The position numbers and the translations under genes are program-made. From the IMG/VR virus record IMGVR_UViG_3300046804_004972, positions 1-59,157 of that record: a DNA stretch of 59,157 nucleotides. One strand, written 5' to 3'. This DNA comes from a virus. The notes under the pieces were generated by a model that saw only the letters and a program-made list of their open reading frames with translations, had not been told where the DNA came from and made no database searches. Shown piece by piece: positions 23,243 to 27,397 of the stretch (positions are counted from its first letter, which is position 1; every line of letters starts with the position of its first letter).

Positions 23243-25438
23243 TTAAACTCTACCAGCAACTTCTTCAAAACTGACTCCAGTACGTGTAGCAACGAAAGTC
23301 AGAGTTACATAGTTGATTGATTTAGTTGGCTTCAGGAAGATGTTAGCTCTAAATTCATTATTATCAATAACATCAGGAGTATTATTTGTAGTGTCACAGA
23401 CAACTAGGAAGTCATATAGACCACGTTTTGCCTGAACATCTCTCAAATAAGGCTCTACAATGTTTACAAAGTTTGCTCTTGTGATCTCGTCATTGAGTTC
23501 AAAGAGTTGTGCTTGTGCAGCTTTCTCTAATGCTTGCTCAACGGTGAGGAAAAGACGACGAACATTAATTCTATCAAATGCTGAAGCATAACCGAGAGCA
23601 GTTTTATCTCCAAAGAGAAGAATACCAATTCCTGGTTGATTTACAACAGAATTGATTCTTTGTGCATAAAGTTGATCCCTTTGTGCCTTGCTTGGATTGT
23701 ATGCAAGTTTGACAGCATTATTTAAAATGCCTCTTTGTTGACCAGCAGGAGAGAACCAAGGATATGCGACAATAGAAGTTCTAACCATCAGACCTGCAAC
23801 ATCTGGGTTGCAAGGAATGTATCTGAAGGTATTATTGAATCTATCATAGGTATACTTATATCCACTATCAAATACTGCATAAGAAGAAGACTGTAGTGAA
23901 CTGAAGAATCTAACAACGTTTGTTGTTTGAGTTGCCGCAGTCAAATCTCCGATAACATTAGATCTATGTGGTGAAATTACAGCAACACAGTCTTTTCTTT
24001 CATTCGCAATAGAAATAAGGTGATTTGCTTTTGCTTGAGACTGTGGTTCTTCTCCTAAACCAGGACCCATAATCAAGTAATCTACCGCAACTTCATCTTT
24101 GTTTGAGAATAGAGTATAAGAACTGATAAGATCAGAAAGTGCAGCTGTCATCCCATTGCCAGCAGAATAGTTCTTACCTGCTGTTAATGTATAAGTTACG
24201 TTACCAATTGCATTGAAGGTAACCCCTTGTGCGTCTTGGTTCCAAATTCCAGATGCTGTAGAAATGCCTGCCCATCCCGATGCTGTTGTAAACGCTGTTG
24301 CTACTGGAGCAGTTGCATTTTGAGTGTCAATTTGGTCTGAAGGATTTGCTCCAGCATATACATACTGCGAATAGATTGCAAGATAATTCTTCCAAAAATT
24401 CTTTTGTGAAGAATTTACGGCCGATACTGAATCTGCAGCTTTGGAAAGGAACAGATGCTTTTCGAGGAGATTTCCTTGAATTCCAGTTACAGAACCCTTG
24501 TCATCAATAACAACAACGTGAATAGCATCATTCTTTCCACTTCTATCAAGTGAATAACTTGTAGAAACTGGTTTTGGTGCTAAAGACTTCCAGTAAACAG
24601 TTGAATTAGTTAGTCCAAGTGTTTGTTGATCGTACCAGTCAAGAATTGTACTAACTGATGCAGTAGTACCAGTTGTAATGCCGGAATTGTTGATAAATGT
24701 TATAGTATCCGAAGCTTCAAAACTATATCCAGCATTTCCTTCGGCATATGAAATTGGTGTAACAGTTCCATTTGATGCAACTCTTGAAAGAATTTTTACA
24801 TCAATGGAACTTGAACCAGATGCTGATGTGGTGACTCCAGTAATTATACCTTTTAAATAACCAGTAAATGTTTCTGTAGTTCCATCATTCTTGGCAATTG
24901 TTACTGCACTTAACGTTGTTGTAACTCCATATCCAATGACTGCTCCTAGAGCACTTGGATTTGTGGTTGCAATTCCAATAGTTTGGTCAGCTTTATCATC
25001 AATTACACAAACTTTTAGATCATTTGCCCAGTTACCTGGATTTTTTGCAGCATATGCAAAGGTTACACTATCTGAAGAGTGATTATCGTTATAATCTTCA
25101 AAATTGTCAATTTTAAGGCTTGTATTTGCGGTGGTATTAAAACCTGCATTGGAATTATTTAAAGTTGTGCCTGAAGTTCTTACAACCTTAAGAATACCAC
25201 CATAAGATAGGAATGAGGAAGCACTCATCCAATACTCATACTGACTATCTGTAGAGATTGGTTTGCCAAATACATTAATTAGTTCTTGTTCGGTCGTAAT
25301 ATCAACGACCTCATCTACTGGACCTTTTGTAAAGGGTCCGGCAATAGCACCGATGTTGTCAAGAACATTTTCAGCTCTTCCTACAGTTAAATCAACCTCT
25401 CTGATTAGTACTCCAGGAGATAATTGAGGAGTCGCCAT
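23243..25438 (-). CDS. 18: gp18-like contractile tail sheath protein
   Basis: A 731-aa sheath subunit (T4 gp18 659 aa). The N-terminus MATPQLSPGVLIREVDLTV is the standard sheath start, and the C-terminal LTVEQALEKAAQAQLFELND, then GLYDFLVVCDTTNNTPDVID are conserved sheath features. The middle (about 130-420) is a Thr/Ser/Gly-rich protruding domain, the variable exposed part. Ribosome site CGGAG lies in one arm of an inverted repeat with a late promoter in its loop. Confidence 0.97.
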   Translation of the reverse strand: MATPQLSPGVLIREVDLTVGRAENVLDNIGAIAGPFTKGPVDEVVDITTEQELINVFGKPISTDSQYEYWMSASSFLSYGGILKVVRTSGTTLNNSNAGFNTTANTSLKIDNFEDYNDNHSSDSVTFAYAAKNPGNWANDLKVCVIDDKADQTIGIATTNPSALGAVIGYGVTTTLSAVTIAKNDGTTETFTGYLKGIITGVTTSASGSSSIDVKILSRVASNGTVTPISYAEGNAGYSFEASDTITFINNSGITTGTTASVSTILDWYDQQTLGLTNSTVYWKSLAPKPVSTSYSLDRSGKNDAIHVVVIDDKGSVTGIQGNLLEKHLFLSKAADSVSAVNSSQKNFWKNYLAIYSQYVYAGANPSDQIDTQNATAPVATAFTTASGWAGISTASGIWNQDAQGVTFNAIGNVTYTLTAGKNYSAGNGMTAALSDLISSYTLFSNKDEVAVDYLIMGPGLGEEPQSQAKANHLISIANERKDCVAVISPHRSNVIGDLTAATQTTNVVRFFSSLQSSSYAVFDSGYKYTYDRFNNTFRYIPCNPDVAGLMVRTSIVAYPWFSPAGQQRGILNNAVKLAYNPSKAQRDQLYAQRINSVVNQPGIGILLFGDKTALGYASAFDRINVRRLFLTVEQALEKAAQAQLFELNDEITRANFVNIVEPYLRDVQAKRGLYDFLVVCDTTNNTPDVIDNNEFRANIFLKPTKSINYVTLTFVATRTGVSFEEVAGRV

Positions 25439-25440
25439 TT

Positions 25441-25504
25441 TTTTCTCCGTAAATCTCAGTTTTACTAAAAATATTTATTAAAATATTATTTTAAGCGGAG
25501 AAAA
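25441..25504 (-). promoter_or_regulatory. inverted repeat that can pair with the gp18 Shine-Dalgarno
   Basis: Arms TTTTCTCCG (25441-25449) and CGGAGAAAA (25496-25504) are exact 9-base complements, 46 bases apart. On the minus strand the 3' arm is the gp18 Shine-Dalgarno CGGAG itself. The late promoter lies between the arms. Confidence 0.6.
25472..25480 (-). promoter_or_regulatory. late promoter for gp18-gp19
   Basis: Minus-strand TAATAAATA, 33 bases upstream of the gp18 ATG, expected start about 25466. RNA from it lacks the upstream anti-Shine-Dalgarno arm. Confidence 0.6.
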
Positions 25505-25517
25505 CGTGACGTGAACA

Positions 25518-25748
25518 CTACCAATCTGGATATTCCCAACAAACATAGTAAGTACGACTATTTTTATTATTTTTTACTCTATGTATAGAACATTCTTTAC
25601 ACTCATATGAATATGATGAAGAAACCGGACCCCTATCTTTGCGAGTCCTATAAAATCCATCTATTAAATTTTTAACTTCTCCACAAGTTCTACATCTTCT
25701 ATCTGTAAGTAATAAATGACCTAGCAGTATTTGTTTATCTAAATCCAT
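25518..25748 (-). CDS. Cys4 zinc-ribbon-like mini-protein between gp17 and gp18
   Basis: A 76-aa protein whose ATG overlaps the gp17 stop (TAATG). Two CxxC pairs, C19-R-T-C22 and C50-K-E-C53, frame a 27-residue loop and would bind one zinc. The loop resembles the Cys pairs of HNH/endonuclease VII-type fingers, but no H-N-H triad is visible, so I do not call it a nuclease. Its coupling to the terminase large subunit suggests a packaging or DNA-processing helper; that is inference. A longer frame to 25766 is possible but less likely. Confidence 0.6.
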   Translation of the reverse strand: MDLDKQILLGHLLLTDRRCRTCGEVKNLIDGFYRTRKDRGPVSSSYSYECKECSIHRVKNNKNSRTYYVCWEYPDW

Positions 25749-27397
25749 TAGGACAAGTACTCCCACATATAAGCACGATCTCCATATTCATCAGTATACC
25801 ATCTATCTCCACTGTTATCTACAAAACTATTATCATCCAATCCATCGTTAATAAACCCAAATGGAGACATATCTTGTTCAATTTGATTTTTTTGTTCTTC
25901 ATATAATTTCTTTCTTACATCTTGGTCTGTAAGCTCTTTAAAATAATCTTGAGCAACTAACCATGCATAAATTACCAAGCACATTGCAAGGTCATCGTTG
26001 CAACCTTCTTCTGCCTCAAATGAATTGTGCTTTTGAATGAACGTTGTTAACTCACTCATAATATCATAATCATTGAAAATAAGTTTATTCTCTTCAATCA
26101 TCGTTTTAAGATTAAGACATCCAACTTTTTTAACAGTTTTGGACATCTTTACTCCCAACTGAGTTTTCTTTCCAGAAAATCCTTGACCAACAATTTGACC
26201 TGCTCTACCTCTCATAGAGCACATCAAAAGATTGTTATACTCAAGATCATAATGTATAATTGATGCTACCTGATCACCAACATCATTTACTTCGCACAAA
26301 ATATAGGCATTATTGTAGTTTTTTACAACGTCTACAATAATACTTGGAAAAAGCATTGGTTTAATTTCATTATTTCTATACTTTGCAACTACTTTATGCG
26401 GAAAGGTTGTTATATCAACTACAGTGAACGCAGAATAATCGTTACCAACCCCTCTTGCAACGTCAACAGTAGCTAAGTAATCATGATTCTCAATTGGATC
26501 CTCATAAACATCTAAACCACCACTGCTGATCTTAGGATTATCGTAAACAAGTGCTCTAAGTTTTGATGGTGCAATCAAAGTATCAACTGATCCTAAGAAT
26601 TCGCATTCAAACTCAACCTTGAACTGTTGTTCTGAAGTGTTTGAGATTGTTTGTTTTTTCCACTCCTCATCACGACCTGGAACTTCACTCCAGTGAACAT
26701 CAGTGAATACATATTCATTTTTACCCTTCTCCGCATCATGCCACATGCGGTAGAAGTGATTCATACCATGTGGAGTAGATACAATAATTACCTTTGTGTT
26801 TTTACCTGAAGTGATTGTTGGATATACTGAAGCAAAGAAAGAATCTGCAATGTGGTTAGGTACGAACGCAAATTCGTCCAAAAATAGAATATTGAATGAC
26901 ATACCACGAACTGCAGAAGCAGAAGTAGAAGCAGCCAAGATCTTACTTCCGTTCTCAAGTTCAAGAGAACCTTTGTTCCAAGATACGATACCCTGTTGCA
27001 TCCATTTGGGAAGATTCTCATATGCAGTTTGTAATCTGTCTAAAAGTTCTCTTGCGGTTGCTGCTTTGTTTGCAAGAATACCAATATTTACATTATCATT
27101 GAAAACTGCATAGTGTAAAAGAAAAGAAACCACAGTTGTAGATTTACCTGTCTGACGAGGCATCTTGCAGATATTAAATCTGTGCTTGTGGAAGTTGTTG
27201 ATTAACTTTTCTTGGAAATGATATGGTTTAAATGTCTGGAGACCATGATCCAGAGTTACAATTTTTACATAATTATTTGCAAAATAAACCGGATCATCTT
27301 TACACTTCACAAATTCAATAATTTGTTCTTGCGTAAACTCAATGGGAGTATTTGCTCTTTTTAGTAACGGATTTCCAAGATATACATCATTTGACAT
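25748..27397 (-). CDS. 17: gp17-like terminase large subunit
   Basis: A 549-aa packaging motor (T4 gp17 610 aa) with an N-terminal ATPase and C-terminal RNase H-like nuclease. Walker A is MPRQTGKST (about 79-87), Walker B is ILFLDEFAF (about 170-178), and the coupling motif is in IIVSTPHG. The nuclease acidic residues appear in A-T-V-D-V-A-R-G (about 305-312), I-L-C-E-V-N-D-V-G-D and N-D-D-L-A-M near the C-terminus. It lacks the first 70 or so residues of T4 gp17. A 90-base gap separates it from the 703-aa gene, with an AGG Shine-Dalgarno-like run but no clear promoter. Confidence 0.97.
   Translation of the reverse strand: MSNDVYLGNPLLKRANTPIEFTQEQIIEFVKCKDDPVYFANNYVKIVTLDHGLQTFKPYHFQEKLINNFHKHRFNICKMPRQTGKSTTVVSFLLHYAVFNDNVNIGILANKAATARELLDRLQTAYENLPKWMQQGIVSWNKGSLELENGSKILAASTSASAVRGMSFNILFLDEFAFVPNHIADSFFASVYPTITSGKNTKVIIVSTPHGMNHFYRMWHDAEKGKNEYVFTDVHWSEVPGRDEEWKKQTISNTSEQQFKVEFECEFLGSVDTLIAPSKLRALVYDNPKISSGGLDVYEDPIENHDYLATVDVARGVGNDYSAFTVVDITTFPHKVVAKYRNNEIKPMLFPSIIVDVVKNYNNAYILCEVNDVGDQVASIIHYDLEYNNLLMCSMRGRAGQIVGQGFSGKKTQLGVKMSKTVKKVGCLNLKTMIEENKLIFNDYDIMSELTTFIQKHNSFEAEEGCNDDLAMCLVIYAWLVAQDYFKELTDQDVRKKLYEEQKNQIEQDMSPFGFINDGLDDNSFVDNSGDRWYTDEYGDRAYMWEYLS

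Follow-up and report, generated by a model that had tools for sequence, protein, structure and literature searches.

A conserved element between an endonuclease VII-like ORF and the gp18 late promoter of T4-like cyanophages

The gp17-gp18 junction and its predicted fold

We analysed a 59,157-nucleotide stretch of viral DNA (the window; IMG/VR record IMGVR_UViG_3300046804_004972), in which the gene order 17-ORF-18-19 on the minus strand is that of the T4-like cyanophage block. The features of the junction are listed below.

25748..27397, minus strand: gene 17, terminase large subunit
25518..25748, minus strand: 76-aa endonuclease VII-like ORF (phrog_4723 / T4-GC282), its ATG overlapping the gp17 stop
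25520-25518, minus strand: ORF stop TAG (sequence)
25490..25516, minus strand: conserved upstream element, -50 to -24; here GTTCACG-TCAC-GTTTTCTCCGCTTAAA, family consensus GTTCAYGNNNNRTTTCCCCNNTGAAA
25504-25496 (25496..25504), minus strand: upstream arm TTTTCTCCG, exact complement of the Shine-Dalgarno (SD) arm
25480-25472, minus strand: T4-type late promoter motif TAATAAATA (motif per PMC2984593), TAAATA at -11 to -6
25439..25466, minus strand: predicted 5' leader of late RNA, placed by the promoter spacing known from T4
25449-25441, minus strand: gp18 SD arm CGGAGAAAA (sequence)
25438-25436, minus strand: gp18 ATG (sequence)
23243..25438, minus strand: gene 18, tail sheath (phrog_23, E 9e-127)

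Read along the mRNA, that is, on the minus strand, the order is TAG, TGTTCACGTCACG, TTTTCTCCG, CTTAAAATAATATTT, TAATAAATA, TTTTTAGTAAAACTGAGATTTA, CGGAGAAAA and AAATG. An Rfam scan of the window returned no match. As a separate observation, positions 25446-25466, between the late promoter and the SD, hold a AGATAAACTGAGA-like stretch that is kept in the MATPQ clade.

The sequence-only reading had proposed that the gp18 ribosome site is hidden by an upstream arm that late transcripts do not carry. The two arms, TTTTCTCCG and CGGAGAAAA, are indeed present in the minus-strand sequence as exact 9-nt complements, 46 nt apart, and the late motif TAATAAATA lies between them, so that late RNA from the predicted start would be without the 5' arm; the predicted +1, at about 25466, is what T4 numbering gives. 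When the upstream stretch was shuffled by mononucleotides, 0.26% of the shuffles gave an exact 9-nt complement. Among the 10 testable ORFs of the window, gp18 alone had a complement of at least 8 nt. In RNAfold the read-through leader folds as that reading had claimed, with the 9 bp helix and, spanning the start codon, CGUCA/UGGCG pairing (-17 to -19 kcal/mol, z -2.3 to -3.2), and the predicted cost of opening the ribosome site is 13-19 kcal/mol in read-through RNA vs 5-10 kcal/mol in late-start RNA. The late-start leader is not completely open, because GGAG of the SD pairs with CUCC of codons 3-5 over 4 bp (SD unpaired 0.03; AUG free). This GGAG/CUCC pairing, at 25422-25449 of the window, is widespread in the MATPQ clade. 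Thus, the arm is real, and by this modelling it could hide the gp18 ribosome site in this one phage.

The upstream element and its neighbouring ORF across cyanophages

The arm is the local version of a longer element, (G)TTCAYG-N4-RTTTCCCC-N2-TGAAA, which T4-like cyanophages carry between the endonuclease VII-like ORF and gp18. The comparison covered about 250 related leader sequences gathered with gp18, ORF and motif queries. For 120 of the loci the query was the exact TTTCCCC pattern, which biases the conservation figures drawn from them, and TAAATA, present in every leader analysed, was itself an entry requirement. Among the 123 distinct leaders not selected by motif, 85 carry TTTCCCC, 26 from one clade carry a CACCACC-type core and 12 carry another; in the S-RSM4/S-CAM4 subclade TTCACCACCTCT, complementary to the phages' own SD, stands in place of TTTCCCC. 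The window arm differs from the TTTCCCC core by C-to-T changes at -35 and -33.

The element keeps a fixed distance from the late promoter. The TTTCCC-to-TAAATA spacing is 27 nt in 160/188 leaders and 26-28 nt in all 188, and in the set not chosen by motif it is 27 nt in 76 of the 85 TTTCCCC leaders and 26-28 nt in all 85, while the flanking distances vary (ORF stop to element, 11-18; TAAATA to ATG, 37-46). In promoter register the blocks are TTCA at -49 to -46, TTTCCCC at -38 to -32, AAA at -26 to -24 and TAAATA at -11 to -6. They recur at intervals of some 11-15 bp, and the spacers separating them are close to random in sequence. Exact matches to TTCACGTCANGTTTCCCC with enough flanking sequence all lie directly upstream of gp18; for one further exact match, after an ORF stop, the contig ends before gp18. 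In 17 named phage records and a long window relative, the element is single-copy when this locus holds the ORF (the degenerate copy in the long relative scores below the threshold of the copy-number search) and is missing from those records when the ORF is not there. No convincing second copy was found elsewhere in these genomes, and matches in MH319757 and MH327487 were rejected as extra copies as they lie inside coding sequence. By eye, the element could also be read as an antisense mini-ORF (GGGGAAAC-RTG).

T4 late promoters show no sequence conservation at -35 and need no -35 element (PMC2988020); the T4-type motif is TATAAATA (PMC2988020) and its cyanophage form NATAAATA (PMC2984593). The gp18 promoter resembles them in its TATAAATA-like -10 box, TAATAAATA, which lies at the expected distance upstream of a late gene. 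Unlike T4 promoters, it has conserved blocks at -50 to -44, -39 to -32 and -26 to -24, including TTTCCCC at -38 to -32 in ORF-carrying phages, and would therefore be a variant late promoter. The TTCA and TTTCCCC blocks were absent from 18 other late promoters. Fourteen of these 18 NATAAATA/CTAAATA promoters (window and L360-L365) have A at -25, a hint that cyanophage late promoters may in general share an upstream A-tract.

The neighbouring ORF matches phrog_4723 over its full length (E 5.7e-32, residues 1-76). Its family has invariant CxxC..CxxC pairs and a C-terminal YPDW. Only 1/31 members matched Pfam Endonuclease_7 (E 0.08), and the conserved D/H/N catalytic set was found neither between nor after the CxxC pairs, so the product appears, as judged from its sequence, to be non-catalytic. 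An AlphaFold2 model of the product had a pLDDT of 69 and gave no Foldseek match at E <= 0.001. YPDW is coded at 25518-25529 of the window and in relatives, and is possibly the protein-contact tail of a small zinc protein. The ORF is also intact, and unannotated, in the S-RSM4 and S-CAM4 records (L360 9001-9231, L362 9001-9231).

In every leader at this locus the ORF and the element are present or missing together, and on the gp18 tree at least 7 joint changes are forced by well-supported branches (11 by parsimony). ORF-less phages have no arm, yet retain the promoter and the SD. Two loci keep an intact element beside a broken ORF (S-SKS1 L093, L337), and in L357, L358 and L359 (P-SSM2 212713-213078) the ORF is missing between gp17 and gp18 and has been relocated downstream of psbA, with no element 3' of the psbA-adjacent copies. 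The joint occurrence thus makes the linkage clear, but psbA copies without the element and broken ORFs with it show no clear dependence. Hypervariable genes between the ORF and gp18 were considered as a linkage test and dropped, as they lie upstream of gp17 in S-RSM4 and others. ORF-less phages, too, have about 15 nt from AAA to TAAATA, and in them the gp17 stop TGTAAA occupies the same position as the TGAAA block; part of the fixed spacing therefore predates the element. The ORF and the element accordingly seem to have been inserted together just upstream of about -30.

DNA element or RNA arm

What the family conserves is the DNA sequence of the arm at a fixed distance from the late promoter, and not a strong RNA stem. 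The explanation that we tentatively prefer is that the element belongs to the gp18 late promoter as an upstream component and acts in DNA; masking would be lineage-specific, either as a by-product or as a second role. RNA polymerase or a regulator would contact the -50 to -24 element and thereby change sheath transcription; the two C-to-T changes would have turned the element of this phage into a perfect anti-Shine-Dalgarno arm, and its read-through RNA is therefore predicted to be poorly translated. The position of the exact matches directly before gp18, the fixed spacing, the regular recurrence of the blocks and the lack of such blocks at 18 other late promoters, the single copy per genome, the failure to find a consensus RNA structure and the broken-ORF loci that keep the element count in favour of action in DNA. 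That action and any effect on gp18 are inferred, while the element, its spacing, its co-occurrence with the ORF and the fold prediction were found directly. Against it count the ORF-less phages, which manage without the element, and the part of the spacing that is older than it.

The first alternative, possible but rather doubtful, is that in read-through RNA the arm pairs with both the ribosome site and the start codon of gp18 and so prevents translation, while late RNA is translated; the pairing would be loose in most relatives and strong in some. The difference in opening cost within the window favours it. The sequence-only reading had named covarying arms in related cyanophages as a check, and there the result was divided: arm and start site show weak co-adaptation across the family, and no conserved stem emerged. 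Masking may thus be a conserved secondary role. Arm and start-region pairing in 82 representatives was stronger in native than in permuted combinations (-12.33 vs -11.28 kcal/mol, p < 0.0002, relatedness ignored). Independent sister pairs favoured the native combination in 58/101 cases (p 0.054, uncorrected, with several such tests run), a signal driven by pairs below 85% gp18 identity (28/38); pairing of the arm core with the SD alone gave no signal in sister pairs (p 0.73). The arm paired better with its own gp18 start than with the starts of other genes in MATPQ, MAGIG and MSLNL, and in MPLNL, a large clade, pairing to the gp18 start was at chance and did not exceed that to the starts of other genes. 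In the S-RSM4 clade the arm ACCTCT stands opposite the SD AGAGGT, which fits RNA pairing better than action in DNA, and the start-codon flanks CATGGC and GATGCC occur with the arms GTCATG and GCATC, respectively. Cores deviating from TTTCCCC also pair strongly more often than the others (4/13 vs 18/191, Fisher p 0.04). The z value of the arm duplex against shuffled arms averaged -0.86 (window's clade -1.15, MPLNL -0.19, window -2.9), and opening energies were 12.8 for native, 11.7 for arm-shuffled and 9.9 for late leaders (MPLNL, native 13.2 vs arm-shuffled 13.6).

The remaining comparisons speak against masking as the general role. RNAalifold found no consensus structure for 72 diverse leaders, and the central pairs of the window fold were kept in just 2/34, 17/72 and 24/72. 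The TTTCCCC core stays constant while SDs vary, even opposite non-matching SDs; C is about as frequent as T opposite the A of the start codon; the arm is missing in ORF-less phages; and the SD of the late RNA is itself paired with codons 3-5. In addition, gene 17 of T4 belongs to the late class just as gene 18 does, so that masking is not as obviously needed here as it is for e or soc.

A second alternative, which we consider improbable, holds that the element is a binding site, an operator or a homing-site relic, through which the adjacent endonuclease VII-like zinc protein regulates gp18, as DNA or RNA. The co-occurrence of ORF and element with its repeated joint changes argues for this, as do the conservation of an ORF without catalytic residues (PMC3037559) and the precedent of I-TevI, whose operator binding represses a late promoter (PMC2988022). 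The psbA-downstream ORFs without a 3' element and the broken ORFs beside an intact one argue against it, and recombination with an ORF-less allele could explain joint loss simply. More speculatively, and against our own expectation, a formerly homing-type endonuclease behind the terminase gene may have become, or brought, a promoter-specific control unit, in which a non-catalytic zinc protein would recognise the -50 to -24 element and tune late transcription of the sheath gene, and in some lineages its translation, as the private regulator of one T4-type late promoter. A third and equally remote alternative rests on short stems within the element near the ORF stop: TTTC/GAAA-like and GTTCA/TGAAC stems do occur in several clades, 0-7 nt past that stop, but they are of 3-5 bp, often broken and not found by RNAalifold, and they leave the fixed spacing to TAAATA unexplained.

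Comparison with known systems

T4-type late promoters have been described as a bare -10 box, and the gp18 element is present in most of the cyanophage leaders examined. If it acts as we suppose, such a conserved upstream element, tied to an endonuclease gene in decay, would illustrate how late transcription becomes promoter-specific, or how the insertion of a mobile gene was accommodated. The case also cautions that a perfect anti-Shine-Dalgarno arm in a single genome can be another kind of conserved element.

T4-GC282 was described as inserted at the gp17 3' end with its catalytic residues lost (PMC3037559); the ORF in the window, of phrog_4723, is the same gene in the same place with the same loss. 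The difference from that account is the conserved 3' element, of which we found no earlier description in the literature searched, where journal coverage was incomplete.

Masked leaders are known for T4 e, soc and 49 and for I-TevI (PMC3014915, PMC2988022). As in those leaders, the late promoter of gp18 is flanked by a 5' arm on one side and the ribosome site on the other, the arm is complementary to the SD and start (in the window, a helix of 9 bp and another 5 bp) and read-through RNA is predicted to be masked. The proposal of e/soc/49-type masking is partly supported, by the predicted thermodynamics and the promoter position in this phage and, weakly, across the family. Unlike in T4 e, soc and 49, the stem is not kept strong across the family, the arm is conserved independently of the SD, and the gene upstream, that for terminase, is also a late one. 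The I-TevI operator overlaps its own late promoter (PMC2988022), and here, likewise, an endonuclease-family gene is accompanied by a late promoter with a putative site; unlike in I-TevI, that promoter drives a downstream structural gene.
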